36,279 bases of DNA from Gammaproteobacteria bacterium. GTDB lineage: Bacteria; Pseudomonadota; Gammaproteobacteria; CAIRSR01. The notes below the pieces were generated by a model that did no database searches, was not told where the DNA came from, and saw only the letters and a program-made list of their open reading frames with translations. The stretch is from positions 1 through 36,279 of the forward strand of contig CAUYTW010000110.1 of the NCBI GenBank assembly GCA_963575715.1. Reading direction: 5' to 3'. This document shows positions 11,248 to 34,278 of the stretch, one piece after another. The position numbers and the translations under genes are program-made. Position 1 is the first letter of the stretch. Each line of letters opens with the position of its first letter.

Positions 11248-11315
11248 CCCAAGGGGCGGAAAAAACCGTCCCCTTTCCTCCCCGCCCTCAAGGGTGAGGT
11301 TTTTCGGAGACATTG
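11248..11315 (+). repeat. Solo 3' end of the ATGA-flanked element, copy C
   Basis: A GGGGCGG/CCGTCCCC stem (11253-11273) is followed by a hairpin from CCCCGCC, a TCAA loop and a GGTGAGG arm, then TTTTTCGGAGACATTG. ATGA at 11316-11319 opens rnfD. The layout matches copies A and G. The GGAG at 11306-11309, six bases before the rnfD ATG, belongs to the repeat, so the element appears to supply the ribosome-binding site of rnfD. The 100 bp between rnfC and this copy show nothing recognisable. Confidence 0.7.
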
Positions 11316-12398
11316 ATGACTACCTTCTCAGTAGCTGGGACGAGCGGCCCGTTTACCCACGCGCCCAACAGTGTTCAAAAAACGATGGGCACGGTGCTGT
11401 TGGCGCTATCTCCAGCTGTCGTTCTTAATCTTTATTTATTTGGTTGGCCTAGCATCCTTTTGTTAGCAGTTACCGTTGGCGCTTGCGTGGCAATTGAGGC
11501 AGCGTGCCTCATTCTCGCTGAACGACCGGTTACTGCGACGCTATCGGATAATTCGGCGATTCTGACTGGCGTGTTGTTGGCAATGAGTTTGCCACCATGG
11601 GCACCATGGTGGATCGGCGGCCTGGGATCGATATTTGCTATTGCCCTCGCCAAGCACGCTTATGGTGGCCTTGGTCAGAATGTGTTTAATCCCGCAATGG
11701 TGGCGCGAGTCGCGTTGCTTGTGTCGTTCCCGGTGGCTATGACTGCTTGGGTCAATCCGCATCCGTTATTTTCGGCCAACGCACCGAGTTTGGTCGATGC
11801 CTTTACCATTACCTTTGGCGGTGGTCCTCCCGATGCGATGAGCGCTGCCTCGGCGTTAGGATATGTCAAGACGGAATTATCGCGCGGAATTCCAATATCA
11901 CAATCGATCAAGAATGTGCCGGACTTGATGGATATGGCGTTGGGATATCGCGCTGGTAGCCTCGGGGAAACTTCAGCACTGTTGATTCTGATCGGTGGTC
12001 TATTCTTGATGATACGGGGTGTCATTTCGTGGCATACCCCAATGGGCGTGATGGGCGCACTATTTTTCATGGGAACCATATTTCATATTATCAATCCTGA
12101 ACGTTTCACCGATGGGATTTTTCATCTGATGTCGGGTGCCACTTTCCTTGGTGCGTTTTTTATTGCCACAGATTATGTAACTTCACCAATCTCAAAATTG
12201 GGACAATTGATATTCGGCATTGGCTGTGGGCTTTTAGCCTGGATAATCCGCACCTTTGCTGGTTATCCTGAAGGGATGGCTTTTGCGATATTGCTAATGA
12301 ATGGATTGACTCTCATCATCGACCAATATACTCGTCCCAGGGTCTTTGGACGTACTCGCAAAGGTGAACCACTATCGGTTAAGGAAAAATCTCCATGA
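11316..12398 (+). CDS. rnfD: Rnf complex membrane subunit RnfD (covalent FMN)
   Basis: An NqrB-related integral membrane subunit with about ten hydrophobic segments, 360 residues from ATG 11316 (a TTG one codon earlier is less likely given the GGAG spacing). Family blocks YGGLGQNVFNPAM and HLMSGATFLGAFFIATD are intact. The covalent FMN site of the family is a Thr in a motif of the form D-x-x-S-x-A-T. Here the aligned residues are D173-A-M-S-A-A-S179, so a Ser takes the place of the usual Thr. It overlaps rnfG by 4 bp. A repeat end forms its leader. Confidence 0.96.
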   Translation: MTTFSVAGTSGPFTHAPNSVQKTMGTVLLALSPAVVLNLYLFGWPSILLLAVTVGACVAIEAACLILAERPVTATLSDNSAILTGVLLAMSLPPWAPWWIGGLGSIFAIALAKHAYGGLGQNVFNPAMVARVALLVSFPVAMTAWVNPHPLFSANAPSLVDAFTITFGGGPPDAMSAASALGYVKTELSRGIPISQSIKNVPDLMDMALGYRAGSLGETSALLILIGGLFLMIRGVISWHTPMGVMGALFFMGTIFHIINPERFTDGIFHLMSGATFLGAFFIATDYVTSPISKLGQLIFGIGCGLLAWIIRTFAGYPEGMAFAILLMNGLTLIIDQYTRPRVFGRTRKGEPLSVKEKSP

Positions 12399-12994
12399 CC
12401 CAAAATACGATGACTCACGCGATAGTTTTAGGATCTTTTAGCTTTTTCTTTGGAGCATTGCTCGCAATAACCAACAGTATGACCGCTGAAGATATTTTGC
12501 TACGTGCGCGAGAAGATCGACAAAATTCAGTGAGCCAGGTGATCCCGCCGAATCTGTACGATAATAATCCTGTCACTGATAGCATTATCTTAAAAGATAC
12601 GGCTGGACAAGATATTACTGTTTATCGTGCCTTAAAAAATGGCAAGGTGACAGGCCTGGCTTATGAAATTCACGGTAGTGGCTATTCCGGCGAGGTTAAA
12701 TTAATGATGGGCGTTGATATCGAGGGTAAAGTTTTGGGGGTACGAGTAATTTCTCACCAGGAAACGCCCGGACTGGGTGATCGCATCAACGAAAAAAAGA
12801 CGGATTGGATACTACATTTTACGGGGTTGTCGCTTGGTAACCCACCCATTGAACAATGGAAGGTTAAAAAAGATGGAGGAAAATTTGACCAATTCTCGGG
12901 AGCCACCATTACGCCCCGGGCAGTGGTGGGCGCGGTGCGTGGAGGACTCGAATTATTCGCTATGCACCAAAAAGAAATGACGGAGGCACGCTAA
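12395..12994 (+). CDS. rnfG: Rnf complex flavoprotein subunit RnfG
   Basis: A membrane-anchored periplasmic flavoprotein, 199 residues, with one N-terminal transmembrane helix (IVLGSFSFFFGALLAI) and an FMN-binding domain. The ApbE target motif is D165-Q-F-S-G-A-T171, so Thr171 should carry covalent FMN. The conserved GYSGEVKLMMGVD and HQETPGLGDRI blocks are present. It overlaps rnfD at its start and rnfE at its stop (TAATG), giving a tightly coupled D-G-E unit. The upstream apbE supplies the flavin transferase. Confidence 0.97.
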   Translation: MTQNTMTHAIVLGSFSFFFGALLAITNSMTAEDILLRAREDRQNSVSQVIPPNLYDNNPVTDSIILKDTAGQDITVYRALKNGKVTGLAYEIHGSGYSGEVKLMMGVDIEGKVLGVRVISHQETPGLGDRINEKKTDWILHFTGLSLGNPPIEQWKVKKDGGKFDQFSGATITPRAVVGAVRGGLELFAMHQKEMTEAR

Positions 12995-13674
12995 TGGCAA
13001 CGAATTACAACCAAATCATCCGTGAAGGTCTTTGGGACAATAACGGTGTATTCAACATGATATTGGGTCTATGCCCAACCATGGCCATGACCACCAGTGC
13101 CACTAATGGATTTGGTTTGGGCTTGGCCACGGCGGTAACAATGATTGCGTCTAATTTATTGGTATCGCTGCTGCGTGGTTTCATTACTCAAGAAGTACGC
13201 ATTCCAGTTTACGTTGTGATTGTCGCGGCTATGGTGACGGTGGTGGATATGATGATGAACGCCTGGATGCATGAGCTGTATAAAATATTGGGATTGTTCA
13301 TTCCTCTGATCGTTGCGAACTGTATCCAATTTGCCCGTATTGAAGTTTTTGCCGCCAAGGAACCGGTATTGCCTTCAATAGTAGATGGCATTTTTTCAGG
13401 AATAGGTTTTATCATTTCACTTACGATTATTGGTATTGTGCGGGAAATCATTGGTTCTGGCACCGTATTCGCCGACGCCTCGTTATTATTGGGTCCAGCG
13501 TTCAAAATCATGGAAATACGCGTGCTACCCGAAGATATGGGAGGGGTTTTGATGATGATTCTACCGCCTGGCGGCTTTCTTGCAGTGGGTTTATTAATTG
13601 TAGTCAAACGCATGATTGAATCACGTATGGCTCGTAACATCCAAGTGGCCGATGTCGTCAACGCCATGGGTTGA
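12994..13674 (+). CDS. rnfE: Rnf complex membrane subunit RnfE
   Basis: An NqrD-related integral membrane subunit, 226 residues and about six hydrophobic segments, topologically paired with RnfA. The hallmark LGLCPTMAMTTSATNGFGLG contains the conserved membrane Cys, and a second one lies in IPLIVANCIQFARIE. The start codon overlaps the rnfG stop (TAATG). In most gammaproteobacteria nth follows; here an ATGA-flanked element and rnfH follow instead. Confidence 0.97.
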   Translation: MATNYNQIIREGLWDNNGVFNMILGLCPTMAMTTSATNGFGLGLATAVTMIASNLLVSLLRGFITQEVRIPVYVVIVAAMVTVVDMMMNAWMHELYKILGLFIPLIVANCIQFARIEVFAAKEPVLPSIVDGIFSGIGFIISLTIIGIVREIIGSGTVFADASLLLGPAFKIMEIRVLPEDMGGVLMMILPPGGFLAVGLLIVVKRMIESRMARNIQVADVVNAMG

Positions 13675-13689
13675 TGAGGAAAAAATAAG

Positions 13690-13951
13690 TCACCCCACGA
13701 CACAATACCTGGCTGCTTTAATAAAAGAAAAAGGCTAGTGTACTAGTCTAAGTCCAAAAATTTAGACTACATTTTGCAATGAAGTAAAAAACACATCTAA
13801 AAATTTCTTCAGTTTGTAACTTTGATAGTGGCAGATGTAGACGATTCTATAGGTGGAAAAAAACGGTTTATCACCATGTTTAACTAACAGGAGGACGGCG
13901 CTTCCTCTCCATGTCTTAAAGTACGTGGATTTTCCGCGCCGTAAATGCTGA
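13690..13951 (+). mobile_element. Omega-RNA-like element with internal deletion, copy D
   Basis: It begins TCACCCCACG like the full copy F. It then keeps CTAAGTCC and GACTACATTTTGCAA, the GTGGCAGATG-AGAC block, AACGGTTT-TC, and the 3' part AGGAGGACGGCGCTTCCTC with TTTTCCGCGCC. It is AT-richer and shorter (262 bp) than E-G because the middle is missing. The 3' end is followed by ATGA, the start of rnfH. Bases between rnfE and rnfH are almost entirely this element. Confidence 0.7.
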
Positions 13952-14236
13952 ATGAAAATAGGTGTTACCTATGCCATACCGCGACGTCAGGTTTTGCTCA
14001 ATATTGAGCTTCCTGATGGCGTTACCGTCAAAGATGCCATTGAGCGTTCAGGAATCTTAAAACAATTTCCTGAGATTGATCTAAAGCAAAATAAAGTAGG
14101 CGTATATGGCAAGATTACGAAGCTTGATACGGTATTGATAGATGGTGATCGTATTGAGATTTATCGCCCTATTACTGCTGATCCAAAAACCGTGCGCCGT
14201 AAAACTAAAGTAGATGGAGAAGAATCCGGAGATTGA
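13952..14236 (+). CDS. rnfH: RnfH family protein (ubiquitin-like beta-grasp fold)
   Basis: A 94-residue UPF0125/RnfH protein with the typical start IGVTYAIPRRQVLLNIELPDG, shown here only to its first blocks, and the GDRIEIYRPI motif. RnfH proteins have a ThiS/MoaD-like beta-grasp fold but lack the C-terminal diglycine; their function is unsettled. In many genomes rnfH sits next to ratA or the rnf genes. Here it closes the rnf cluster, 277 bp from rnfE, with element D between. Its ATG is the ATGA flanking that element, and no separate ribosome-binding site is obvious. Confidence 0.88.
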   Translation: MKIGVTYAIPRRQVLLNIELPDGVTVKDAIERSGILKQFPEIDLKQNKVGVYGKITKLDTVLIDGDRIEIYRPITADPKTVRRKTKVDGEESGD

Positions 14237-14283
14237 CTTTAGGATTTGATAGTAAGAATCAAAAACTGCTGGCAGATGTCAGG

Positions 14284-14623
14284 AACCCCACGCCTAAAGG
14301 CGGGGGCTTGTGAAGTCAAATTCACAAGTTCGAACTTGACCAGCCTAAGTCCAAAGTATTGGACTACGTTTTTGGAGTCATGACACCTACGGATGCGTGC
14401 CAGTCCGCAGCTCTGTCGCTCACCGTTAAACATCTTTAATGGGGTTAAGGAAGTGCGGTTAGCGGAACAGAGCTGCTGAAAACATTGGCGAGGCAAACAT
14501 AACCGGCGCAAGCCGAGTTGCCCTTACAGGCTGACAGCCGGGAAAGACCGGCTCCTAATTCTGAAAACCGCCCGTTTTCGTCCCTGCCACGGCTAAAGCC
14601 GTGGGGCTTCTCGCGGGCATTTG
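14284..14623 (+). mobile_element. Full-length omega-RNA-like (HEARO-type) element, copy E
   Basis: About 340 bp. The 5' hairpin is CCCCACGCCTAAAGGCGGGGG. Internal blocks are CAGCCTAAGTCC...GGACTACGTT (14341-14370), ACATTGGCGAGG (14482-14493) and GGCTGACAGCCGGGAAAGAC (from 14529). The 3' hairpin CCACGGCTAAAGCCGTGG ends near 14605, then CTTCTCGCGGGCATTTG. GTGA follows at 14624-14627. Here no gene begins at the flank; the sbcC 3' end lies just beyond. Both ends carry subterminal hairpins with a TAAA-type loop, as in IS200/IS605-class elements. There is no ORF of note inside. HEARO identity is inferred. Confidence 0.75.
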
Positions 14624-14645
14624 GTGAAAAAAATCGTGTGATGAA

Positions 14646-17600
14646 TCAGGTGGAGATCTGAAAAAACCGTGATTCCCGATTCTCCAGTACTCGCACTCGA
14701 CTACGTCCATTATTTATGATTTCCACCCGAATTTGAACGCCAATGTATTCGGTGAGAGCGGGTACATGAGAAATTATCCCAACCTTGCGTCCTTGAGACT
14801 GAAGGGCGTCCAATGCAGCGAGGACGGTATCCAGGGTATCTTGATCCAAGCTACCGAATCCTTCATCGATGAATAGTGATTCTACTTGCGTGTTCTGAGT
14901 TGATAGCGAGGCTAATCCCAATGCCAAGGCTAGGGATACGATGAATGTTTCACCTCCTGATAAACTATGGACGCCTCGCAATTCGTTTCCTGAGTCACGG
15001 TCTAGCACTTGCAATTCCAAGCCTGCGTTACGGATCCGTTTTAAGTGATAGCGTCGCGCCAAGTCTTCCAAATGACGATTGGCATGGCCGAGCAGGATCT
15101 CCAAGGTGAGACTTTGGGCATAGGTACGGAATTTGACGCCATCTGCTGAACCAATCAATTCCCGCAACTCTTCCCAGCGTTTCCATTCCCGCTCCTTGAT
15201 TTCCCGGGCGACAAGTAGCTCTCTACTCTGAGCGCATCGTTGATCATCATTCCGCACGCGAAATTGGACATCAGCAAGATAAGAGCGAGCTGTTTCTTCA
15301 TCGCATGTCGCCTTGGTTAGTGCCATTGCTATTTCGCTTTCGGTGAGGGTTGGGGCACCTGATGATAGATAATCTTCTCGTTCGCAACGCCGTTCCCTAA
15401 GATGGCTGGCAGCAATTTCTCGGCCACGTTCGATGGCATCGAGATTGGCGCGCTCTTGTTCTAGCCAAACGCTATCTCGTTCTAGGAGTTTGCGCAGGGT
15501 GGAGAGTTCGATTTGATGAGACGCAAGCAACCGTTCGAGATGAGCATGGGTCAATTTAAGGGTTTGATAGTGCAGTTCGCGATCGTCGGCACGGAGTGTC
15601 CGTTGGGTACGAGCCGCGATCAGCGATTCTTCTACTTGATGCAGAGCTAGGTTCGCTTGTTGTTCAATGGTTTGTGCTTGATCTAACCGAGACAGAAGCT
15701 CTTTTTCTACAGAGTCTGCTGATTGGCCTTTTAGCAAAGTGGCGCGTTCCTGGCTTAGAGTTGCATCAGCAGAGCACGCTGTGGCAGCGTCCCGAGCTGT
15801 TTGCTGCGCTCGCTCGTGGGTCATATCGACGGTGGCAGTAGCTCCCGCCAGTGCTATTTTTCCCGTGGCGATTTCTTGGGCTAACTTACCAAGGCGCTCC
15901 TGGTGTTGACGATAGGCTTGACAGTCCCTCTCGCAACGAACCTGAAAGGCTGCTGGATCATTATCCAGGGTGCTTGACCAATGCTTGATGCCTGCCAGAG
16001 GGGCCGCTAAGGTCTCGCGGGCTACGGTCATCTCGCGCGCCGCACGGACCATTTCGGCAGTGGCGGCAGCATGACGTTCGCAGGCTGAGGCCAATGCACG
16101 TTCTAAATGAACCAATTTTTCGCGGGTGATTGCTTCCTCATGAGCAGCGGCATCAACCGCTACGCGAGCGGCACTAATCGCTGATTGGGTAGCCCGCGCC
16201 ATCTCCTCGGCCTGGATGATGGCATCGATCTGGCCGCGTAACTCTTCATCATGGCGGCGTAACCGCTCAGGAAGATCTGGATCGATATGATCCAGTGGTG
16301 TAACAGCATACGCTGCCCAAACTTGTTGCGCGGCGGTCAATTCATTGGTCCAGGAATCGACACGCACTTGTTGGGCATGAGCCTGACGCTGGGCATTATC
16401 ACGGCTGGCGCAGGCGCGCGCCTGCTCAGTCGTAAGTTGTTCCAACGCTTGGCCCAATTCGGTGACCCGTTGACGCTGATCGTCCAGCAATTCATTGAAA
16501 GCGCCTGGTGAATGGCTCCATGGATGGTCAAGAGAACCACACACTGGACAAGGTTGGTTCATGGTGAGATGAGCACGCAGGGTTATCACGTCCTTACTCG
16601 CGGCAAGCGTGGCGCGCTCCAGGGCTGATTGCGCCTCACCGTAGGCGGAGCGCATTGGTACCAGCTCATCTGCGCAGCGCCGCGCTATCACTTCAGCAGC
16701 CGCCATATCGCGCATGGCGTCATCATGAGTCGCCAGGGCAGCGTCCAACTCCTGACGCGCACGACATATTGCCATGACCGCATCGGCATGGCGGCGCAGT
16801 TGTTCGCGTGTTTCTGCCAACGCCAAGCGGTGATGTGCTAATTCCGTACTATCCTGGCCAACAGCTTCCACTTCACGCGCCACCAACTCCGTTTGTGTCT
16901 GTTCCAATACCGCCTGCGTTGCCGTCAATGATTTCCGGGCCAGATCCAGTTGCACGGTCAGCAAGCCAATTTCGTGTTGTCGGACTGCTGCGTCTTGCCT
17001 GGCGCTGCGTTCCGCTGCCAGCAAAATCTGGAAGCGCCTTAGCTCGGCGTCCCAACGCGGCCACTGTTCGACCAAGGCAGCATGATGCGCATGGGCGCCC
17101 AGCCATTCAACGGTTGCAGCATATTGACGCTCACGTTCGTCCTGGTCTTTGAGCAGTGCCTGATAATGGCGTATCGCGTCTTGAGCGGCGCGTTGCGCAG
17201 TGGCGTCGTTCGAAACAGTCAACTTGCGTTGATGGCGGGCATCGCTAAGACGTGCGTCGAGCAGGCGCGCCCTGAGCAGGTCAGGAGTGATTTTTTCAAG
17301 GGCAGTCTCCGCATTACGCCAATTAACGCGCGCGGTATCGAAAGCCATACGCGCCATGGTGCTTGCTTGGTTGATCCTTTCTTCAGCAACGCGAGCTTGA
17401 GCGAGCGCGGCTTCGGCATCGTCCAGGAGTTTGGTGTGACGATCCGTCTCCGCCAAGGGGACGCGTAGAGCCTGAACTCGGAAAATTTCTTGCCAGGCTT
17501 TCTGGCGCGAAGCGGCCTCAGAACAGAGTGCTGTAGCAGCAGCAAGTTCGTTGTCCGCCATAGTTTCAGCGTAAACGAGACGTTGGTAATGAAGATGCCA

Positions 17601-18386
17601 ATCTCGCGCGCGCTGTGCTTCCATCAGAACGGCGCGCGCCGTCTTAAGCGCCGCAAGCTGGGTTTCCTGCTCGCTGTCCAGGTTAGCGCGTATTTCCTTT
17701 TCCAGGGGTTGCAAGTCTTGAACCCGATGATTCAAAAGTTGTAATTCTTCTTTTTCGAGTTTAGCGCGGTCGTAGGCAGCAATGGAAATTTGGCTATAGA
17801 GTTCAGTGCCGGTGATGCGCTCCAGAAGCTCACCGCGCTCTTTTCCACGCGCTTTAAGGAAAGCGGCGAACTCACCCTGTGCAAGCAGCACAGAACGACA
17901 GAATTGATCAAAATTTAGACCAAGGCGGGTAGCGATAGCGTCAAGCACTTCTGTTTTTGTATGACCAATAAATTTATTGTCGGTCAAATTTCGCAGGGTC
18001 ATGGATTGGGCCTGGAGGCAACCTGCGGCGCGCTTTCTGGCGCGGTACACCTCCCAGCGAGAGCGATAACGACAATGGTCGAAACCGACGAAATCGACTT
18101 CAGCCCAACCTTCCACGGCACCGTGGCGGAGAAGATTGCGCGGATCGTTGGCGGAAATGCCATGATCTGCTTCTTCACCCAACGTCACCCTAGGACTACC
18201 CACCAGTCTGGGCACGGTATCGAATAACGCCAGGCAGAGAGCGTCGAGCAGGGTACTTTTACCCGATCCAGTGGGGCCGGTGATGGCATAAAGATTAGCT
18301 TGACCCAAGGGTCCATGCTCCAGATCGATAACGAAATCTCCAGCCAAACTCGTTAAGTTTCGTCCGCGAATAGCGAGAATTTTCAT
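14646..18386 (-). CDS. sbcC: Exonuclease SbcC, SMC-like ATPase subunit
   Basis: The Rad50-like ATPase that, with the SbcD nuclease, cleaves hairpins and processes DNA ends. The 1246-residue protein has an N-terminal MKILAIRGRNLTSLAGDF block, Walker A TGPTGSGKST (about 37-46), two long coiled coils around a zinc hook CPVC near residue 612, and a C-terminal signature LSGGETF with Walker B SLFIDEGFG and the ISHVPALTE switch. I start at ATG 18386; a TTG three codons upstream belongs to the flanking repeat. sbcD, normally just upstream, is missing; element F takes that place. No frameshift seen. Confidence 0.95.
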   Translation of the reverse strand: MKILAIRGRNLTSLAGDFVIDLEHGPLGQANLYAITGPTGSGKSTLLDALCLALFDTVPRLVGSPRVTLGEEADHGISANDPRNLLRHGAVEGWAEVDFVGFDHCRYRSRWEVYRARKRAAGCLQAQSMTLRNLTDNKFIGHTKTEVLDAIATRLGLNFDQFCRSVLLAQGEFAAFLKARGKERGELLERITGTELYSQISIAAYDRAKLEKEELQLLNHRVQDLQPLEKEIRANLDSEQETQLAALKTARAVLMEAQRARDWHLHYQRLVYAETMADNELAAATALCSEAASRQKAWQEIFRVQALRVPLAETDRHTKLLDDAEAALAQARVAEERINQASTMARMAFDTARVNWRNAETALEKITPDLLRARLLDARLSDARHQRKLTVSNDATAQRAAQDAIRHYQALLKDQDERERQYAATVEWLGAHAHHAALVEQWPRWDAELRRFQILLAAERSARQDAAVRQHEIGLLTVQLDLARKSLTATQAVLEQTQTELVAREVEAVGQDSTELAHHRLALAETREQLRRHADAVMAICRARQELDAALATHDDAMRDMAAAEVIARRCADELVPMRSAYGEAQSALERATLAASKDVITLRAHLTMNQPCPVCGSLDHPWSHSPGAFNELLDDQRQRVTELGQALEQLTTEQARACASRDNAQRQAHAQQVRVDSWTNELTAAQQVWAAYAVTPLDHIDPDLPERLRRHDEELRGQIDAIIQAEEMARATQSAISAARVAVDAAAHEEAITREKLVHLERALASACERHAAATAEMVRAAREMTVARETLAAPLAGIKHWSSTLDNDPAAFQVRCERDCQAYRQHQERLGKLAQEIATGKIALAGATATVDMTHERAQQTARDAATACSADATLSQERATLLKGQSADSVEKELLSRLDQAQTIEQQANLALHQVEESLIAARTQRTLRADDRELHYQTLKLTHAHLERLLASHQIELSTLRKLLERDSVWLEQERANLDAIERGREIAASHLRERRCEREDYLSSGAPTLTESEIAMALTKATCDEETARSYLADVQFRVRNDDQRCAQSRELLVAREIKEREWKRWEELRELIGSADGVKFRTYAQSLTLEILLGHANRHLEDLARRYHLKRIRNAGLELQVLDRDSGNELRGVHSLSGGETFIVSLALALGLASLSTQNTQVESLFIDEGFGSLDQDTLDTVLAALDALQSQGRKVGIISHVPALTEYIGVQIRVEIINNGRSRVRVLENRESRFFQIST

Positions 18387-18765
18387 TCCATCCAAATCCA
18401 GCGCGGAAACCCCTGGCTTTAGCCATGGGGAGGAAGCGCCGCCCTCCTGTTTTTTGATTTTGAAGTTAAGAAAGAGCCGGTCTTTCCCGGCTGTCAGCCC
18501 TTACGGGCCTGGTGACACGAGTCTTGCGACCCGGCTCCCCTCGCCAATGTTGCAACGCAGCTTGGATTCGATACTTTGAATCTTGCGACAAACCGTTTCG
18601 CTCTTACCCCTGAGATTGTCTGCATCTGCCACTTTCAGCAGCCCTGAATTGAGGAAGCGCCCTAGGGTGAGTCTTTTACTTCGTTGCAACGTAGTCCGAT
18701 TGCTCGGACTTAGGCTGGTAAACCAGGCTTTATTCCATTAAAGCCCCGGCTTTAGCCGTGGGGTG
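18387..18765 (-). mobile_element. Full-length omega-RNA-like (HEARO-type) element, copy F
   Basis: About 379 bp on the minus strand, the best reference copy. It opens with the hairpin CACCCCACGGCTAAAGCCGG and then CAGCCTAAGTCCGA-GCAA-TCGGACTACG, a perfect stem-loop. TTGCAACGAAGTAA, GGGCTGCTGAAAGTGGCAGA, ACATTGGCGAGGGGAGCC and GGGCTGACAGCCGGGAAAGA follow. It closes with GGCGGCGCTTCCTCCCCATG, GCTAAAGCCAGGGG and TTTCCGCGCTGGATTTGG. The sbcC start ATGA follows after a short GATGGA overlap. Dense stems and no ORF indicate an RNA element. Confidence 0.8.
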
Positions 18766-18850
18766 ATTTACTCTTTTGATTTGCATTCGACACCCGGCAA
18801 TAAACAATTATTAATCGCTTTACTTATATTCCGTTGGACACGAGGTCACA

Positions 18851-19417
18851 TCAAGTTAAGCGCAAAAAATGAGCGCGGTAGTAGCGCAACTCCGCGATGG
18901 AGGCCCGAATATCATCCAATGCAAGGTGCGTGGAATTTTTTTTGAAGGCTTCTGCCATGGCGGGTGACCAACGCCGGGCAAGCTCCTTTACGGTGCTTAC
19001 ATCTAAATTCCGATAGTGAAACCATCGTTCCAGGCTTGGCATGTAGCGAGCAAGAAAACGGCGGTCCTGGCAAATGCTGTTTCCGCACATGGGAGAATGT
19101 CCGGCAGGGACATAGCGGTTAACGAATTCCAGAGTTAACTGTTCAGCCCACGCCACTTCAATGTGACTGGTCCGCACTCGTTCTGTTAGCCCCGATGATT
19201 GATGCTGTCTGGTATTCCACTCATCCATCACAGCGAGGATTGCATCGTCTTGATGAACAGCGATTACCGGACCCTCGGCGATAGATTCAAGATGGGCATC
19301 GGTAATCAAGGTGGCAATCTCGATGATGCGATCCCGATCCGGGTCAAGCCCGGTCATCTCTAGGTCAATCCAAACAAGATGTTCCTTATTTTGAATGGCG
19401 TTTACCATATAATTCAT
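18851..19417 (-). CDS. orn: Oligoribonuclease (DEDDh 3'-5' exonuclease)
   Basis: Orn degrades 2-5 nt RNAs, including pGpG from cyclic-di-GMP turnover, to mononucleotides. The 188-residue product shows the DEDDh active site: Asp18 and Glu20 in [12 protein letters not shown], Asp118 in CQDRRFL, and His164/Asp169 in STHLALDDI. The conserved [13 protein letters not shown] block is intact. ATG 19417 has AAGGAT close upstream; ATG at codon 4 is an alternative. Elements F and G flank it. Orn is essentially restricted to gamma- and betaproteobacteria, actinobacteria and relatives, which fits the lineage call. The 85 bp between it and element F hold nothing clear. Confidence 0.96.
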
Positions 19418-19471
19418 ATATCCTTTTCAAGGATGGAAAGGCAGTTTGTTTTCTGGTAGCCAATCGTCAAT

Positions 19472-19862
19472 CACCCCGCGCTAAAGGGTGGGGCTTGTGA
19501 AAACAAGGCCGAGGTTGACGAGCTTTAGTTCGAGAAATCGGACTACGTTGCAACGAAGTAACAGACTCACCCTGGGATGCTTCCTCCTGCCTGTCGGCAG
19601 ACAGGCAGTTCCAGGGCTGCTGAAAGCGGCGGATGCAGACACGGTACGGGTAACGACGAAACGGTCTGCTGCAAATCCTGCGACTGCGCGCAGGATAAAG
19701 CTGCGTTGCAACATTGGCGAGGGGAGCCACACCGCAAGGTGTGTGTCACTTGGGCCGCGTAAGGGCTGACAGTCGGGAAAGACCGGCGTTTTTACCGGAC
19801 GGTTGTAAAACCCCGTCCCCTTTCCTCCCCGCCCTTTAGGGCGGGGTTTCTCCGGGACATTG
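19472..19862 (+). mobile_element. Full-length omega-RNA-like (HEARO-type) element, copy G
   Basis: About 391 bp. 5' hairpin CACCCCGCGCTAAAGGGTGG, then GGACTACGTTGCAACGAAGT (19540-19559), ACATTGGCGAGGGGAGCC (from 19710) and GGGCTGACAGTCGGGAAAGA (from 19763). The 3' end is a perfect 8-bp stem CCCCGCCC/GGGCGGGG with loop TTTA (19827-19846), then TTTCTCCGGGACATTG. The flank is ATGT, one base off ATGA. A 9-bp palindrome CTGCCTGTC/GACAGGCAG (19589-19610) is nested inside. Its 3' end is of the copy A/C type while its interior matches copy F. Small frames inside are unlikely to be genes. Confidence 0.78.
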
Positions 19863-19968
19863 ATGTCATCGTTGAATTGTCGGCTGTGGCCCATAATGTT
19901 GTGTAGATCATCCAGTAATATACTGTAAAAATATATTTTTTAAACCAAAAATTAATTTTTAATTATGT
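19863..19968 (+). other. AT-rich leader of ubiV
   Basis: About 106 bp of increasingly AT-rich sequence before ubiV. I looked for an FNR-type TTGAT-N4-ATCAA site, because ubiUV genes are often oxygen-regulated, and saw none. No clear ribosome-binding site precedes the ubiV ATG. Confidence 0.4.
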
Positions 19969-23917: not shown

Positions 23918-23946
23918 TTCATTATTTTATGATAGTAATCATAAAT

Positions 23947-24858: not shown

Positions 24859-25113
24859 CCACATTCGGCGCAGAAAACGTTGGCTTTAGCCATGGTAGAG
24901 GAAGCGCCGCCTCCTGTTTTTTCTTGCAGTTGAAGTTGAAGTGAAATTGCCGGTCTTTCCCAACCGTCAGCACTGTCTGCCGACAGACAGGCGACAGGCA
25001 GAAGGAAGCATTCGTAGGTCAGTCTTGTACTTCGTTGCAACGTAACCACGATTTGTAGATCTGGTTGGTAAACCAAGCTTTTTCCATAAAACCCCCGCCT
25101 TTTGCGTGGCATG
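24859..25113 (-). mobile_element. Shortened omega-RNA-like element, copy H
   Basis: About 255 bp, minus strand. The 5' hairpin is degenerate (CCACGCAAAAGGCGGGGG). TTGCAACGAAGTACAAGACT and the GGAGGCGGCGCTTCCTC block are kept. The 3' end is GTTTTCTGCGCCGAATGTGG, then ATGA, the znuA start. The middle is shortened and holds nested palindromes (CTGTCTG/CAGACAG and CTGCCTGTC-type units near 24974-25002) like the one inside copy G. Confidence 0.7.
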
Positions 25114-25127
25114 GTTTAGATAAACAC

Positions 25128-25826
25128 TTATGCGCACATTTTAAGAGACAGTTGACGCAAATATACGGGTAATGCCTGCTCGGCAGGCATCCCGCGTCCG
25201 GCGGCCAGCTCGGATACCGCAAGGCGCGCTACGTCTCCAGCCCGAGGATAGAGCAGCTCCGACAGGATGGTGATTGCGCTCCCAGTCAAGGATTGGATAA
25301 GGACAGTGCCGTGAGTACCCCAGCCACTACCCACGATTATCCATCCACCGTCTCCCGGTGGCAGTGTGACTTGCTCTGGCCGACAGACACTAACCGCGCC
25401 AACCACTCTCACCAGAAAATCAGAGCCGCGTCGAAAAGCGCCATGGTAGACTTCTCCCATGCGTGCGTCCTGTATTGCCAATATCTGTTCACCTATTTCC
25501 CCATGCGGGGAATAATTCCTAGTAGCTTGCGCCAAAGCTGCCAGAGAAGAAATTGCCACCACTGGCAATTCCGCTGCGAACGCCAGTCCCTGTACGACTC
25601 CTGCAGCAATCCGCAATCCTGTAAAGGCACCTGGCCCACAACCAAAAGCAAGGCCATCCAGTTCTTTCAAACCTAAACCACCTTCCCTTAATAGCTCATC
25701 AACCATCGACAGGATGAGTGTTCCATGAGAACGCGGAGCAAGCACGAATTGTTCTCGTATTTCTTCATTGAGCCATAAAGCACAAGAACAGGCATCAGTC
25801 GATGTTTCAATGGCCAGAATTTTCAT
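25128..25826 (-). CDS. tsaB: tRNA threonylcarbamoyladenosine biosynthesis protein TsaB
   Basis: TsaB dimerises with TsaD and works with TsaE in t6A37 tRNA modification. The 232-residue product begins MKILAIETSTDACSCALW. The conserved GCGPGAFTGLRIA motif (about 68-80) and the HSF-domain fold are kept. It lacks the metal-binding site of TsaD, as expected. I start at ATG 25826, one base after the metA stop, which implies coupling to metA; an in-frame upstream start at 25868 would overlap metA. Element H lies downstream. Confidence 0.93.
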   Translation of the reverse strand: MKILAIETSTDACSCALWLNEEIREQFVLAPRSHGTLILSMVDELLREGGLGLKELDGLAFGCGPGAFTGLRIAAGVVQGLAFAAELPVVAISSLAALAQATRNYSPHGEIGEQILAIQDARMGEVYHGAFRRGSDFLVRVVGAVSVCRPEQVTLPPGDGGWIIVGSGWGTHGTVLIQSLTGSAITILSELLYPRAGDVARLAVSELAAGRGMPAEQALPVYLRQLSLKMCA

Positions 25827-25827
25827 T

Positions 25828-26901: not shown

Positions 26902-26988
26902 TTAGATATCTGCTGTTGCAAACTTTATGATAATTATGAAAAATACCAGATTCACGTTTCCCCGTCAATTCGATATTTACGTTTCTTG

Positions 26989-28221
26989 TCAATTTGATTT
27001 TGCGGCAGGGGGATTCGTGTTAGTGGCTGCTACGCCGGGCATTGAATTATTTGAATTATTCAAGGAAACCAATTTTACAACGCTTCCTGGCCGCGCGTTC
27101 ATCATTCCTTCGATAATTACCCGTTCGCCACCGGACAGACCAGATGAAACCAACCATTGGTTACCGATGGCGCGATTAAGTGTCAACATGCGCCGTTGAA
27201 CGGTATTGGCATCATCTACAATGAGCACCATTGGTTCGCCTTTGGGAGTGCGTGTCACTCCTTGCTGAGGAGCTAAAATGGCCTTTTCGATGATCCCGTC
27301 CTGAATGACCGCACGTAAAAACATGCCTGGCAGCAACAAATAATTTGGATTGGGGACCACAATGCGCAAGCTAAATGAGCCGGTTGCTGGATCAATCGTG
27401 ATATCACGGAATTGCATTTTTCCTTCCAGCGGATACGCTGTCCCGTCTTCCAAAAAAATCCTGACTTTATTTTCTTTTTTTCCATTCATGCTGAACCGTC
27501 CATTTTCTACATTGCGTTTTAAGCGTAGCAGTTCCGATGATGATTGAGAAACATCAACATAAATTGGATCAAGTTGTTGAATAGTAGCAAGGACCAATGG
27601 CTGATACGCTGTCACCAGCGCGCCATCGGTTACATTCGATTTACCAACGCGCCCGGAAATGGGTGCAGTAACTCGAGTGTAATCAAAATTAATTTGGGCT
27701 GCCTCCACCGAGGTTTTCCAATATTCAATTTCAGCTTGTGTCTGCGCCACTGCTGCGAGCGCATCATCATAATCCTGTTGACTGATTGCATTGTTAGCCA
27801 GTAATTTTCGATAGCGTTCAGCGCGTGCGCGAACCGATGGCAAACTAGCGCGCGCTTTACCAAGCGAGGCCCGCGCTGAGTCCTGGGCCACCTGAAAGGA
27901 TACAGGATCAATCTGGTACAATAATTGTCCTGCCTTAACATCTGAGCCTTCCTGAAATAAACGTTTCTGGATAATGCCATTAACTCTAGGACGTATTTCA
28001 GCAACCAAATAAGCGGAAGCACGTCCCGGCAATTCAGTGGTTAATTCGACAGAACTTGGCTCGATGGTCACTGTTGCTACTTCTGGAACTGGAGTGAGAG
28101 CTGGTACGCTTGGTGGCGTCGGCGCAGCGAATTTATTTTCACATCCTACCAAAAGAAAAATTATTGGTATAAAAATTATCATCCGGTTGATCGATTGGGA
28201 TCGGTACCTGATTGGTTGCAT
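26989..28221 (-). CDS. RND efflux periplasmic adaptor (AcrA/MexA type) lipoprotein
   Basis: A membrane fusion protein linking an RND pump to an outer-membrane channel. The 410-residue product has a lipoprotein signal with lipobox FLLVGC near residues 22-27, the lipoyl half-motifs (GIIQKRLFQEGSDVKAGQLL and RVTAPISGRVGKSNVTDG), an alpha-helical hairpin with SQQDYDDALAAVAQTQAEIE between them, and a C-terminal barrel. GGAG lies upstream of the ATG. The RND pump gene that normally follows is absent (metA is next), so either the pump lies elsewhere or the operon was split. Substrates cannot be predicted. Confidence 0.93.
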   Translation of the reverse strand: MQPIRYRSQSINRMIIFIPIIFLLVGCENKFAAPTPPSVPALTPVPEVATVTIEPSSVELTTELPGRASAYLVAEIRPRVNGIIQKRLFQEGSDVKAGQLLYQIDPVSFQVAQDSARASLGKARASLPSVRARAERYRKLLANNAISQQDYDDALAAVAQTQAEIEYWKTSVEAAQINFDYTRVTAPISGRVGKSNVTDGALVTAYQPLVLATIQQLDPIYVDVSQSSSELLRLKRNVENGRFSMNGKKENKVRIFLEDGTAYPLEGKMQFRDITIDPATGSFSLRIVVPNPNYLLLPGMFLRAVIQDGIIEKAILAPQQGVTRTPKGEPMVLIVDDANTVQRRMLTLNRAIGNQWLVSSGLSGGERVIIEGMMNARPGSVVKLVSLNNSNNSMPGVAATNTNPPAAKSN

Positions 28222-28281
28222 CGTGAATCTCCACCGAACGAAAATGATTTAATGACTAAAAAAAGCAAGGAAGATTTTGTT

Positions 28282-29115
28282 TTACTTCAAGCTACCGTGA
28301 GCGGTCATCAAGCGTAAAAAATTGGTGGTGGTTGCCTCGGCGAGGGTGATTAATTCCATTTTACGTACCTTAGCAAGCTGTTCGGCTACATATCGAACCC
28401 AGGCTGGATGGTTGGATTTTCCACGATAGGGTACAGGAGCCAAATAAGGAGAATCAGTTTCCACCAATAACGATTCAAGTGGCAAACGAATTGCCACCTC
28501 GCGCAATTCAACGGCGTTACGGAAAGTTATAATTCCGGAAAAAGAAATATAAAAACCTAATTCCCAGGCGGCGCGGGCGGTATTCCAATCTTCGGTGAAA
28601 CAATGCATGATTCCGCCAACTTCGCGTGCGCCCTCCTCGGCCAGGATACGCAAAGTATCGGCGCGCGCTTCACGACTGTGAATGATTAGCGGTTTACCTA
28701 CCGCCCGCGCCGCTATAATATGACGACGAAAACGCTCCTGTTGCCAGCCAGAATCACCTTGATGATAGTGATAATCCAATCCTGTTTCGCCGATGGCCAC
28801 TACCGCCGGATGTTGAGCCAAAGCAATTAATTCCTCAACCTCGGGTTCGTGGGAAACACACTCCCCAGGATGAATTCCAACTGAAATGTGAACATCAGAA
28901 AAATTTTCCGCTATGGTCAGTATTTGAGAAAAATTATCGAGATTGATGGACACACACAAGAATCGCTCTACGCCTTCTCGACGGGCTGCCGCCAATGCCT
29001 CCGAGAGTTGTCCTCTAAAAGGAGCAAGATCAAGACGATCCAGATGACAATGTGAATCAATTAATCGTGGTAGCGTGGATGGGGATAATGTCATTGTTTT
29101 TAGATCATGGTGCAT
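28282..29115 (-). CDS. tatD: TatD-family metal-dependent hydrolase
   Basis: A TIM-barrel hydrolase of the TatD/YcfH family, known as DNases or D-aminoacyl hydrolases; 277 residues. Metal ligands are visible in IDSHCHLD (HxH), GETGLDY, the IIHSREA histidine, GGIMHCFTED, and the C-terminal LVETDSPYLAP aspartate. The first Met is at 29115; Met8 (29094) is an alternative and neither has a good ribosome-binding site. It follows jetC by 52 bp on the same strand. Whether it is a general nuclease or contributes to the Jet module is unknown. Confidence 0.93.
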   Translation of the reverse strand: MHHDLKTMTLSPSTLPRLIDSHCHLDRLDLAPFRGQLSEALAAARREGVERFLCVSINLDNFSQILTIAENFSDVHISVGIHPGECVSHEPEVEELIALAQHPAVVAIGETGLDYHYHQGDSGWQQERFRRHIIAARAVGKPLIIHSREARADTLRILAEEGAREVGGIMHCFTEDWNTARAAWELGFYISFSGIITFRNAVELREVAIRLPLESLLVETDSPYLAPVPYRGKSNHPAWVRYVAEQLAKVRKMELITLAEATTTNFLRLMTAHGSLK

Positions 29116-29167
29116 TTATTTACAATCTGTTGTTAAGATCCATCATCTTTAACCAAAAGATCAGGAA

Positions 29168-32100
29168 TTATCCTTTTAATCGTTCTTTTTCCACCTGATA
29201 TTCCTCAATGGTAAGATTGCGGAGCTTGGAAGCACGGCCTTCTTCGTTATGCACAAAACCCACACTGGCGACGAACGGCTCGATGATGTGAATCTTTTGC
29301 AGTGGCGTAACGATCAAAAGCTGTAAATTAAGTTGCTGGAATAATTTCAAGCCATATTGTGCTGATTCGTCAGAACCGCGTCCGAAGGCCTCATCAATAA
29401 CCACGAAACGGAAGGATCGCGGAGAATTGCCCATGCTGCCTAATTCTAAGCCGAATTGATAAACTAAACTGGCAGCAAGAATGGTATAGGCCAGTTTTTC
29501 TTTTTGTCCACCCGATTTGCCACCCGAATCCGAATAATGCTCATATTCAGTTCCATCCTCGCGCCAGCGTTCGGACGCGGCAAACGTAAACCAGTTACGC
29601 ACGTCAGTGACCTTGATTACCCAGCGTCGATCTGCCTCGGACTGTCCTTCTCGACCACGAAATTTTTCGATGATTTCTTTAACTTGCAAAAATTTTTTTT
29701 CTGAATACTGGCTATCGTCGGAACCCGTCGGGCCACCTTCGGTACAGGCGCGCATTTCATTCTGGAAATCGCGGATAGTGGCATCTTGGGTGAGACCTGC
29801 TTCCAGAACAATATAACGGCCAGGGTTATAATCAATTTTAGTGAGTGACCGGTTAATCTGGGCAATGCGTTCCTTAATGGTTTCTCGTTCGCGGTTGAGT
29901 TGTGACTGAAAATTGGCTACTTCTCGGATCGTGTTTTCGTTTAATAATTCTTTGAAGCGTGCCTCGAAACGAGGTAAATCATCCGTGCGCAGTAATTCCA
30001 ACATTTTGCTGTATTCACCACAGGCATCAATGTTGACATCCACTTCCTGAGTATCAAGGCGGTAAGCATCCTTGTATTCTGTCATTAATTTAATGATGCG
30101 TTCGCGCAGTTTATTGATATTTTTATTTTCATTGTTAATGCGATTTCCTAGCCAACTGCGCATTTTTTGTTCATCGTCATCATAGGATTCCATGCTTAAT
30201 TTATGTTCACCCAGAGCTTCCAGGCGCAAGGACTCTAGACGGGAAAAACGCGTTAGGTGGATGGCGTTCCCTGCGGCATCAAGTAAATTTTGGCATTGAT
30301 GGCGAGAAAATTTAGTGTCCGTTATTTGTTGCGCTATTTTTGAACGTTGATCCTTGGCATTATCCAGTTTTATTTCAATTTTTTTAAGATCCTGCTCGAC
30401 GGTTATCAACTGACTAGCAAGTTCCTTAAGCAAATTGGAGGTGCTTTCCAGTTCGATTTTTTCATTTTGCAGTTTTGCGATTTCGCTGGCAAGGGATTGC
30501 CAGTCAAGTTCACGAAATTCTGGGTATTCATCCAGTTTGGAAAGAATCTCCACGCGAGTTTTAATTGCACCTAAATTCTTTTGCAGCATGGCAATTTGAG
30601 TGCCCAACTCGCCAAGGTGCGCTTTGAGTTGTTGTTCTCGGTTTTCCAGTGCGGCGATTTTAGCGGCGTTAGTCCAACCCAGCACATAGCGACTATGGTC
30701 GTCGATGCGATAACGGTCATCTTTTTCGTGGCGTTCCCCCGGTGCTTTAATTTGACCAGAACGGGTAATAGCGCGCATTTCACGGCGAAATTGTTCTTGC
30801 GTGGCGCAGCAAGCGACATCGAAACGGTGATTAATTTCCCGTTCAAGCCAATCATAATAGGGTGAATCCTTAATCATCAGTTTACGTGCCAGGGAATCAC
30901 GATGTAAATCGCGCATTTCAGTTCGACCAACGGCGCGTACCCGGAAATAGACCAAGCGCCCGCGAAGCTGGGTGCGATCAACCCATTCGACTACTCTGGC
31001 ATAATGCGTATCCGGTACTAATAGCGACAGGCCAAAACTGCGGAGCAATCGTTCAGCGGCCCCTTCCCAGTCGCGTTCATTTTCACGAACTTGTAATAAT
31101 TCACCTGCGAAAGGTATATCCGTTTCTGGCAGCGAGAGCGTGACGCACAGGGAATCACGCATAGCGATTTGTTCACCTGGAATGTTGCTGCGGCGTGCTT
31201 TCAGGCTTTTAATTTCTGCGCTCAATTGAGCATGTTCCTGCTTTCCCTGGCGTAGCGCCATGCTGGTTTCCGTCAAGGCATTTTGTAGTTCCATTTCGCG
31301 TGTGCGTTCATCCTGATCCAGCGTTGAAAATTGTTGACGTTGAATTAGAAAAGAATCCACATCTCTAGCCGGAGATTGTCCCAAAGCATTAACCAATTCA
31401 GCGTGACGTTGTGCCTTCCGTTGACGCGACAAGCGTTCCTTTTCCTTGTCACGGATTTCCTGTTCGAGTAATTCAATGCGATTGCCACCGTTTTCAGCAA
31501 TATTACGCTTGAGTTCATTTTGTTTATTTTGCAGAGTCTGGCGAAGCTCGGTTAAAGCTTCCACCCGGGAATTCTCTCGTGCCCAGGTAATATTCAAAAG
31601 GGCAAGACGTTCATCGAGCAAGGATAATTTTAGACCGGCAAAATAGATCTTTACTGCTTCCTGACAAGCGCATAATTCATCACGCTGGATGGCAAGATCT
31701 GTGTGTTGATTACAGTCTGCAACCAATGGGGTCAACAGGATAATTTGACGCTTGGCCTTGAGCACCGCTTGGTGGGTGCAATTCAGGTCATCGAAGTGAG
31801 CAATTAACGCTGCTGCTCGTGGTGCCACGTCAAAGGGTTCAAGCATGTGGTTGCGCACAAAGTCAGTCAAATTCCCTACTGACTTCATCGATACGGTCTG
31901 GTGAAATAACTCCAGGGCCTGCTCGTTGTCAATGCCGAAACGACGGCGAAACCATGCGCCATAGGGAGGAAAATTATCGAATAATTCTGCGCCTAGCCCA
32001 CGGAGTTTTTTCCGCAATCCGCTAATGTCCGCGCCAAAATTGGAAAAATGCTCCTTAATGGACAGATCACGCTCAATTCCCAAAAAAAATCGTGCTGGTT

Positions 32101-32542
32101 GTCCATAAGGATCCTTAATCCAGAATACTTGCGCCAAGGTTATCATCTGACCATGGGCGGAATTATAAAATACTCCAAGAATGACCGAATAAGTATTATC
32201 GCCACGCAAGGCAACTGGTTTAGCGGCTCCGCTTAAATCATTGCGCTCGGATTTATAATACCCTAACACGTAGGAACGCAGAGTTCGCTCACTCGCCGCA
32301 GCACCCGCAGCCTTGTTATAAGCAATGCGTTGTGTCGGCACCAACAAGGTAGTCACCGCATCAACTAGGGTTGATTTTCCCGAACCAATATCACCAGTCA
32401 GCAAAGAATTCCTGCATTCAGGGTGGATCGACCAAACCCGAGCGTTGAAAGTGCCCCAATTGAATACTTCCAGGCGATGAAGACGAAATCCTGTCAGTGT
32501 GTCATTAGCGACAAACGCCATTTCCAACTGTTCTTCATTCAT
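29168..32542 (-). CDS. jetC: Wadjet JetC / MksF-like SMC-type ATPase
   Basis: A 1124-residue SMC-like ATPase of the COG4913 group, the motor of Wadjet/Mks-type anti-plasmid condensin systems. Walker A is [10 protein letters not shown] (about 49-58), then the conserved [16 protein letters not shown] stretch. Long coiled coils fill the middle. The signature [14 protein letters not shown] and Walker [19 protein letters not shown] lie near residues 1007 and 1050. ATG 32542 overlaps the jetB stop (TGATG). jetA (DUF3375) and the nuclease jetD are missing on both sides, so a complete Wadjet is not encoded here. Confidence 0.88.
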
Positions 32543-33180
32543 CACTCAAACCCTTGTTTCCGTATTCCAATTTGGGACTGATAAGCCGCGAGTCCTTGAT
32601 CGAAATTAGCCAGCCATTGCGCGTCGACAAAGGCTTTCAGGATCCGTCGCACTTCGAACATTGGTATTGATTCATTCGGTATTTTCAAAATGCGGAGAAA
32701 ACCCAGCTCGACGATTTTATTAAGGTGGGTATCAACTTGATCGATAATTTTTGCTTCGTTGGTACTTTCTGGGAGGAACACCTGAATTAAGCCAACGATT
32801 TCATCGCGTGACAATACCAGGCGAGTATCATTGCCAACCGCGTCGAATTCGGCCAATTTTTTACGCAATAATGCAAGTAACAAACTAACGGGAAACGATA
32901 ATGGCCGCCGCGCTATCAGGCGTGGTTGCTTGGTGGTATCGTCTGATTCAGCACGCGAACGTAGGAAAGCATATTTTTCCACCTCGTCTAACATCAATTC
33001 TAATCCTAGCACCGCCACATAATCACGCACCTGTGCTTGCAGACGCAGTAATCCATTCCATAATTCACCGTCGTTTTCCTGGTAAATGACTCCCTTGAGT
33101 AGCGGGACAACCAAGGCTGATAAATCGTAACCTCTGTCGTGGAGAAGAAGAGTTGCTATTTTGTTATTTTTTTCCACCAT
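32542..33180 (-). CDS. jetB: Wadjet JetB / MksE-like DUF4194 protein
   Basis: A DUF4194 protein, the winged-helix (KITE-like) subunit of Wadjet and related SMC complexes. It begins [15 protein letters not shown] and has the blocks [18 protein letters not shown] and [20 protein letters not shown] typical of the family. I start at ATG 33180, with GGGG seven to ten bases upstream; ATG 33186 or a TTG at 33210 are less likely. It overlaps jetC by one base. lpxL lies 50 bp upstream on the same strand, where jetA would be expected. Confidence 0.85.
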
Positions 33181-33230
33181 GTACATGCCCCAGGTAATGA
33201 ATGCAGGCAATTGTTTCGTATCACAGCAAG

Positions 33231-34148
33231 CTATCGCTTATAAGGATCAGGAACTCCGGGAGGACGCGTTTTGAAACGACGATGCACCCATAGGTACTGC
33301 TCGGGGACTTCCCGTATCCATTCTTCTAGCAGGGCGTTAAGACGGGCTGCGTCTTGATCAGGATCGCCGGGAAAATTTTCTAAGGCTGGAAAGATGCGGA
33401 TGCGATAATGTCCATTCGGCAGGCGGGCAGGCCAGTAAGGAACCACCGCCGCGCCGGTGATTTTCGCTAGCCTACTTGTTGTCGTGAGGGTCGCGGTGGG
33501 CACGCCAAAAAATGGCGCAAAGACCACGCGCGCTCCTCCTTGATCCTGATCCATGGCGTACCACACCGTCGCTCCTTGTTCAAGGCCACGAACCATGGCG
33601 CGAATGTCATCACGCGCATAAACCCCTGGACTACGTTGACAGCGGGCACGCAACACCACGGCGTCCGCTAAAGGATTGCGCAATGGACGATACATAACGT
33701 GCAGGGGAAAATGAATGCCTAGCAAGTGGCCCGCGAGTTCGAGGCTAGTAAAGTGACCGGTGAACAGGATAACTCCGCGCCCCTTTTCCCGCGCCGCCTG
33801 TAAATGTTCTTCTCCTTCCAGTACCGCTAACGGACGCAGCGTGCCGTCGTCCAGCCACCAGCTCATGGCGGTTTCAATCATTCCCATTCCCAGGGATTCA
33901 AGATGGCGTCGTGCGAGCTGTTTGCGTTCCTGTTCGTCCAGCGCGGGAAAACACAGCGCAAGGTTGGTTTCCACCGTTTGGCGCCGACTCGCTACCCACT
34001 GTCCCGAAGTTTTTCCTAACCAGGCTCCCAACGCCAAACGCGTTTTATGAGGCAGCGCCACTGCCAGGCGTGTAACGCCCAGTCCCATCCAGGTGGGCCA
34101 GTAGCGCGGCGCGGAAAAATCGGCAAGATTGGGGATTTCACCAATCAT
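33231..34148 (-). CDS. lpxL: Lipid A biosynthesis acyltransferase (LpxL/HtrB family)
   Basis: An inner-membrane-associated acyltransferase adding a secondary acyl chain to lipid A precursor; 305 residues. The catalytic His132/Glu137 pair lies in TGHFTSLELAG, at the same numbers as in E. coli LpxL. VMYRPLRNPLAD and WYAMDQDQGG blocks are kept. A membrane helix like the N-terminus of E. coli LpxL is not obvious. The start ATGATT abuts element I, which ends in GAATTTGG. jetB follows 50 bp downstream. LpxL and LpxM paralogues are hard to tell apart by eye. Confidence 0.9.
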   Translation of the reverse strand: MIGEIPNLADFSAPRYWPTWMGLGVTRLAVALPHKTRLALGAWLGKTSGQWVASRRQTVETNLALCFPALDEQERKQLARRHLESLGMGMIETAMSWWLDDGTLRPLAVLEGEEHLQAAREKGRGVILFTGHFTSLELAGHLLGIHFPLHVMYRPLRNPLADAVVLRARCQRSPGVYARDDIRAMVRGLEQGATVWYAMDQDQGGARVVFAPFFGVPTATLTTTSRLAKITGAAVVPYWPARLPNGHYRIRIFPALENFPGDPDQDAARLNALLEEWIREVPEQYLWVHRRFKTRPPGVPDPYKR

Positions 34149-34278
34149 CCAAATTCGGCGCGGAAACCCCTGGCTTGAGCCATGGGGAGGAAGCGCCGTC
34201 CTCCTGTTTGTTCTTGAAGTTAAAGTTGAAATGAAGTTGCCGGTCTTTCCCGGCTGTCAACCTTTACGGGCCTAGTGA
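34149..34278 (-). repeat. 3' portion of the omega-RNA-like element, copy I
   Basis: About 130 bp, minus strand. It aligns with the 3' third of copy F: AGGCCCGTAAAGGTTGACAG, CCGGGAAAGACCGGC, GGAGGACGGCGCTTCCTCCC and CATGGCTCAAGCCAGGGGTT, then TTTCCGCGCCGAATTTGG. ATGA follows, the lpxL start. The 5' side is truncated at the accA 3' end, and its first bases encode the last accA residues. Confidence 0.75.

Follow-up and report, generated by a model that had tools for sequence, protein, structure and literature searches.

Omega-RNA elements of IscB type often end at start codons and probably replace the ribosome-binding sites of genes in a gammaproteobacterial genome

What are the hairpin-bearing repeats dispersed over contig C110 of a gammaproteobacterial genome, and why do several of them stop exactly where a gene begins? 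The contig, of which a stretch of 36,279 nt is analyzed here (hereafter the window), belongs to a 3.70-Mb assembly of 363 contigs, and a preliminary description of it had proposed that these repeats are mobile, IscB-less relatives of HEARO, followed on their 3' side by ATGA or GTGA. We report here that they are non-autonomous copies, many with an omega-RNA, of an IscB-type (HEARO) IS200/IS605-like mobile element; those of the window were filed as non-autonomous derivatives because no iscB open reading frame lies 3' of their RNA. We further propose, with a probability that we would place at about 0.7, that the non-autonomous omega-RNA elements of this IscB transposon replace the ribosome-binding site (RBS) of a gene and are kept there.

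That HEARO is the omega-RNA of IscB is established (PMC9755519). When the Rfam HEARO model (RF02033) was run over the three stretches singled out in the preliminary description, each of them matched above the gathering score of 83 bits (Table 1), and in the genome as a whole 129 matches were found at E<=0.001, 63 of which were above gathering, with covariance scores reaching 166.5 bits. Fourteen control genomes returned zero HEARO matches. Covariation agrees with this identity, as 14 of the 28 consensus pairs, including pairs of the closing stem and of a long-range stem, show changes on both sides that keep the pair when 44 copies are aligned. Hairpins are visible at both ends of the elements, with right-end fold z-scores ranging from -0.96 to -3.5, strong values being seen only in the AGGAGG-hairpin type of right end described below. 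Moreover, iscB is found 3' of a HEARO RNA on contigs C351 and C62 of this genome, and also in a congener (G001) and in genomes G071, G264, and G268. Given that small GC-rich hairpins and Y1-type transposases are present in the genus, one could argue that the repeats are REP/RAYT, ERIC, integron, or group II intron debris whose likeness to HEARO is incidental; however, the covariance scores, the empty controls, the covariation, and the iscB genes that directly follow the same RNA, both here and in relatives, all speak against it. We consider such an origin extremely improbable, and REP/RAYT, ERIC, or group II debris was rejected based on the covariance results and the iscB linkage.

Right ends and start codons were counted in 1.335 Mb of stretches around HEARO matches, and therefore the counts given here are lower bounds, and the densities are not genome averages. 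The right flank was [AG]TGA in 176 of the 183 right ends (ATGA in 165, GTGA in 11), which is far beyond chance, and the same was seen in the right ends sampled from the congener, where ATGA came next in 22/23 and GTGA in 1/23. Element left ends read GT[CA]AATCACCCC or GTCA[AG]GAACCCC, and right ends stop just before [AG]TGA. The left flanks of the 95 copies in which they could be read are all different, and about a dozen near-identical 378-bp copies in the congener also have unrelated left flanks. Paralogous empty sites reveal how the element enters. The element at C304:20030 lies between TTGAATTAAACCGC and GTGACCTATGC, while its paralogous counterpart on C300, within an apparent serine-recombinase gene, is uninterrupted and reads TTGAATCAAACCGC joined to GTGACCTACGC, that is, the guide and then GTGACCTA. 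A truncated element at C363:33753 has paralogous empty sites on C22, where the guide is followed by ATGA, and on C18; the empty site on C297 aligns with the C303:14528 element at the junction, but reads ATCG there. In these sites the flanks are joined without the element, and without duplication or loss. Insertion is thus exact, between the guide-side flank and [AG]TGA and with no target duplication, as in IS200/IS605-IscB elements, and both the mobility of the repeats and the order of guide, element, and [AG]TGA anticipated in the preliminary description are borne out, the latter by the empty sites on C300 (GTGA) and C22 (ATGA). A cryptic internal left end (GTCACTAGG) was also considered as the source of copies made of a right end only; it was seen in about four copies, too few for this role. 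As a separate observation, a copy at C77:26492 (locus L137) has gone in where a different repeat family has its right end (..CACGCCGAGGATCT), and separates that end from the ATGA that both share; this second family also stops at apparent start codons on C311, C34, and C343.

The ATGA flank is as the preliminary description had it, which however overlooked that this ATGA is frequently a start codon. Based on the calls of a simple codon-usage gene finder (1042 genes), 77 of the 183 right ends abut a called start exactly, 91 are intergenic, and 15 lie in genes, compared to 408, 3537, and 18754, respectively, for all other [AG]TGA sites. Set against the non-coding background (77:91 vs 408:3537), this enrichment has an odds ratio of 7.3 (p=9e-30). 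Elements are carried at the start by 77 of the 448 genes beginning with ATGA, and the start copies number 94 of 183, so that roughly one in two recognisable copies ends exactly at a gene start. The called starts are supported as true starts by full-length matches to family models that begin at residues 1-5 (pheT, accC, serC, ilvC, lpxC, glgA, galU, asd, rplY, gltA, murU, motA, and rluB), and by relatives that use the same ATGA. Three relatives start rnfD at the same codon with no element, and the same holds in one or two relatives for glnB and about six other genes; the empty sites in relatives whose comparison had been suggested in the preliminary description do therefore exist. For ilvC, the element is present in the congener as well. 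A co-directional gene lies within 700 nt upstream in 48 of the 94 start copies, and between accB and accC the element occupies the gap between two genes of one operon; in such positions it would therefore supply an RBS rather than a promoter.

The right end itself carries a candidate RBS. Two types, S and N, cover nearly all start copies. The type S end reads TCGGAGACACTG immediately before ATGA, and places GG[AG]G 6 nt before the ATG in 44 of the 94 start copies and 7 nt before it in 5. In type N, AGGAGGA precedes a hairpin closed by CGGCGC/GCGCCG, which is then followed by AATTTGG and ATGA; in the predicted fold of the copy at lpxL, both AGGAGGA and AAUUUGG-AUG remain outside the hairpin, and the core would therefore sit about 8 nt from the ATG. 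A GGAGG-like core is found upstream of the hairpin in 37 of 38 type N start copies, while among the other genes starting with ATGA a proximal core is seen in only 130/370. Type G ends (GCATTTG followed by GTGA, with no core) were at starts in 0/8 cases, although these copies are young and their type is confounded with GTGA. On these grounds, translation of the downstream genes would initiate from the Shine-Dalgarno (SD) sequence of the element.

A probable mechanism can be outlined as follows. Insertion places the element exactly between a host flank, which would become the 5' guide of its omega-RNA, and [AG]TGA, a sequence that would double as insertion-site motif and target-adjacent motif (TAM). 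Where this motif is a start codon, the gene could remain translatable, as ATGA commonly serves as a start codon and the right end carries an SD core at a working distance, which would reach the junction directly in one subfamily and bridged by a hairpin in another. Guided by the omega-RNA, IscB would, for as long as it is present, cut the empty allele, and the element would tend to be kept. Start copies may then survive as the RBS of host genes, essential ones included, even after the omega-RNA body has decayed. Cleavage by IscB in trans and the movement of the ATGA copies by a transposase are both steps that we infer.

Candidate partners for these steps do exist in the genome. The elements of the window are indeed IscB-less, as are most copies, and no tnpA gene lies in the window, but neither statement applies genome-wide, since a complete element on C351 carries tnpA (224-583), iscB (895-1782), and an omega-RNA (1858-2081), and C62 harbours an iscB that has lost its HNH region through an internal deletion, with further iscB fragments elsewhere. 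In the C351 element and its derivatives, however, the right flank ends in ATAAA rather than ATGA, and the ATGA copies may therefore have a partner other than C351. It represents, in fact, a second IscB family (C351:1-2100, locus L108; C44:30054; C315:4085; C295:11020), whose TAM is probably ATAAA because its copies share the right flank TTTATAAA. On C62, the iscB at 5771-6740 (locus L135) has its HNH cleanly missing and an open frame of ~341 codons, and follows the best-scoring omega-RNA; a second internally deleted copy, at C62:1-171, still has the part of IscB that leads into HNH. To judge from their sequence, these copies are natural IsrB-like deletion derivatives. Intact iscB genes were found in the congener, beside a HEARO RNA, and in genome G002, another member of the family.

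Several of our results weigh against the proposed role of the elements. The enrichment at starts could be due to survivorship only. In type S, start copies have not preserved the SD arm better (49/52) than the other copies (53/56), and for AGGAGGA of type N an advantage of start copies was seen only at p=0.03, in one of four comparisons. The assembly has no intact iscB that belongs to the ATGA subfamily, the intact C351 copy having an ATAAA-like flank, nor is any transposase tied to the ATGA copies, as only the C351 element carries tnpA. Y1 transposase matches were none in G002 and G003, and only weak ones were obtained in G001; G002 has 29 HEARO matches and an intact iscB, yet no match to a Y1 transposase. 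A comparison of right and left stem arms as a sign of selection on the SD core was not used, as start copies and the others are equally asymmetric, and the asymmetry is in part an artefact of typing.

If survivorship were all, the element would insert at any [AG]TGA, copies within genes would be lost, the excess at starts would reveal nothing of how the element is designed, and GGAG would be just the 3' arm of a hairpin recognised by the transposase. Our direct reading of the ends lends this some weight, as the SD core lies within an outer stem that is compensatory across subfamilies (GTCTCC/GGAGAC, GTCCCC/GGGGAC, CGGCGC/GCGCCG) and is equally conserved away from starts; moreover, high-scoring copies are found at starts less often (16/48, 33%) than the remaining ones (78/135; p=0.004). 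On the other hand, the odds ratio of 7.3 was obtained with genic sites already removed from the background, even high-scoring copies are at starts more often than the 17% expected from eligible sites (p=0.006), and copies at the start of essential genes must permit initiation at that ATG regardless of how their SD core originated. We therefore regard survivorship alone as the less likely reading, though not a negligible one; the start-copy figures fit some excess of insertion at starts combined with the retention of copies that became the leader of a gene.

Another explanation is that the standalone omega-RNAs constitute a guide repertoire for an IscB acting in trans, or for the C62 product, which would repress or cut host or foreign sequences in a manner likened to that of TnpB-derived repressors. 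The diversity of the left flanks and the open HNH-less frame following the best-scoring omega-RNA would suit such a function. However, no guide had a convincing second target: matches at other loci were mostly repeats and paralogous empty sites, and shuffled guides gave 9 chance matches. In addition, roughly every second HEARO match falls short of the gathering score and many copies are reduced to a right end, hence the omega-RNAs as a set are decaying. We deem this explanation improbable, and return to the replacement of RBSs by the elements as the reading that we favour.

High copy number is a feature of few genomes. In a sample of 369 genomes of the class, 13 (our own included) had a HEARO match, and many matches were seen only in this genome, the congener, and one member of the sister genus, the other 366 having 0-3 each; a second member of the sister genus had no HEARO match. 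When 399 genomes were drawn from across the phylum, a match was seen in only two others in addition to this genome. An exact search for a 23-base core in named genomes returned unrelated matches along with what are, by eye, true elements in Thiotrichales bacterium KR_bin-0880, Methylobacter, a Pseudomonadota metagenome-assembled genome, and Candidatus Contendobacter. As far as could be judged by eye, elements in those lineages end in TGATGA at the apparent starts of HU-like, response-regulator-like, and antitoxin-like genes, and a complete iscB element in G264 abuts the start of a recJ-like gene.

Elements of this kind are known. HEARO was reportedly found to be mobile at ATGA/GTGA sites by Weinberg in 2009, and Altae-Tran in 2021 is said to have reported omega-RNAs that stand alone and, for an Allochromatium IscB, the TAM ATGA. 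Like HEARO/IscB elements, ours begin at the left with an omega-RNA, followed directly on its 3' side by iscB if this gene is present, and they have hairpins visible at their ends, a putative guide in the left flank, a predicted TAM in the right flank, and no target duplication. Unlike those known, they reach 129 matches in 3.7 Mb, have lost intact iscB in the ATGA subfamilies, and lie at start codons with an SD-bearing right end. Dispersed short repeats near start codons also include REP2/CREN of Neisseria and REP/ERIC of enterobacteria, and REP2 carries an RBS, but we know of no tie of these repeats to a guide RNA or IscB, nor of an ATGA motif that defines their insertion; in the literature searched, REP2 was found mentioned together with an RBS in PMC9031163 alone. 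Few HEARO nucleases have TnpA nearby (PMC9755519). IsrB, an HNH-less OMEGA nickase, has orthologues for which NTG and TTGA/ATGA TAMs were measured (PMC9581776); these motifs and the lack of HNH are shared by the elements and the C62 protein, respectively, although the latter resembles an IscB with an internal deletion, as the sister fragment at C62:1-171 shows. In Borrelia, IS605 stem-loop remnants are found at lipoprotein genes (PMC2775950), and are likewise free-standing ends fixed beside genes, but at their 3' ends and not at start codons. Within the part of the literature covered by our search, no report of a start-codon location with an SD-bearing end was found, and this relationship looks new.

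Within the window, a right-end profile hidden Markov model (HMM) trained on 41 copies from this genome recovers, at E ~1e-4 or better, copies A (974) and C (11319) and those at 14626, 18388(-), 19866, 24855(-), and 34145(-). Copy D, whose right-end hairpin has a z-score of -3.5, was missed at the threshold used and was read by eye; the decayed copy ending at 13951 is presumably the one so named in the preliminary description. Copies A and C to I of that list therefore stand, while fragment B is doubtful, and the element at 14278 stands with a small correction, as it ends at 14623, after TTTG. The 3' flanks listed there were also confirmed, namely ATGA (A, C, D, 24858(-), and 34148(-)), GTGA (14624), and ATGT (19863); that at 18391(-) is ATGG, with the native ATGA of an sbcC-like gene after it, and a tblastn alignment to the congener's orthologue of this gene begins at the ATGA codon. 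The elements also alter the C-terminus of upstream genes: the last codons and stop of accA (..KSLGP*) come from the element (34265-34282, minus strand), and ilvN on C61 likewise ends in ..KSLGGNL. A group II intron domain (RF00029, 55.7 bits) was found at 35400-36279 on the minus strand, where a reverse-transcriptase/maturase C-terminus and an HNH motif lie at the window edge.

Table 1. Elements and associated features in the 36,279-nt window.
Feature	Position	Strand	Directly 3'	Evidence
Copy A, right end only	885..970 (left limit approximate)	+	ATGA 971-974	Right-end HMM 916-974, E=1.5e-13
Fragment B, weak right-end-like stretch	6391..6427	-		Right-end HMM E=0.077 only
Copy C, right end with GGAG core	11248..11315	+	ATGA 11316-11319, rnfD start	Right-end HMM E=5e-15
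rnfD, start codon is the ATGA of copy C	11316..12398	+		TIGR01946, 369.6 bits
Copy D, decayed omega-RNA body and AGGAGG-hairpin right end	13742..13951 (left limit approximate)	+	ATGA 13952-13955, start of a gene that we take to be rnfH	Read by eye
Host flank, putative guide of the 14278 omega-RNA	14258..14277	+	Left end of the 14278 element	Position directly 5' of left end
Full-length non-autonomous element, HEARO 14278-14503	14278..14623	+	GTGA 14624-14627, intergenic	RF02033 146.7 bits; right-end match
Element with HEARO 18529-18771	18392..18771	-	ATGG 18391-18388, then native sbcC-like start ATGA 18386-18383	RF02033 86.6 bits; right-end HMM E=2.4e-9
Element with HEARO 19466-19732	19466..19862	+	ATGT 19863-19866, intergenic	RF02033 84.3 bits; right-end HMM E=5e-12
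Decayed element, AGGAGG-hairpin right end	24859..25130	-	ATGA 24858-24855, start of metal-binding ABC substrate protein, AztC/ZnuA-like (NCBIfam)	Right-end HMM E=4e-5
Short copy starting GTCACTAGG, between accA and lpxL	34149..34279	-	ATGA 34148-34145, lpxL start	Right-end HMM E=1.4e-9
lpxL-like acyltransferase gene, start is the ATGA of the 34149-34279 copy	33231..34148	-		TIGR02207 LpxL/LpxP

In broader terms, and more tentatively, an element of the lineage ancestral to Cas9, whose insertion motif is a start codon and which brings its own RBS, might land harmlessly, take over the initiation of several percent of the genes of this genus, essential ones included, and thus become hard to lose, a design that other gammaproteobacterial HEARO/IscB elements could have in common. 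Such a relationship would explain, in biological terms, the NTGA target-adjacent motif that IscB and IsrB use, as the common bacterial start codons are all NTG. It also suggests a route by which an RNA-guided mobile element may attain a high copy number in a compact genome without being lethal to the host, and by which the debris of an element may become the RBS of genes such as accC, lpxC, and pheT. Finally, the ~95 distinct guides present in one genome, nearly all of them on iscB-less copies, provide a natural collection for the study of omega-RNA action in trans.

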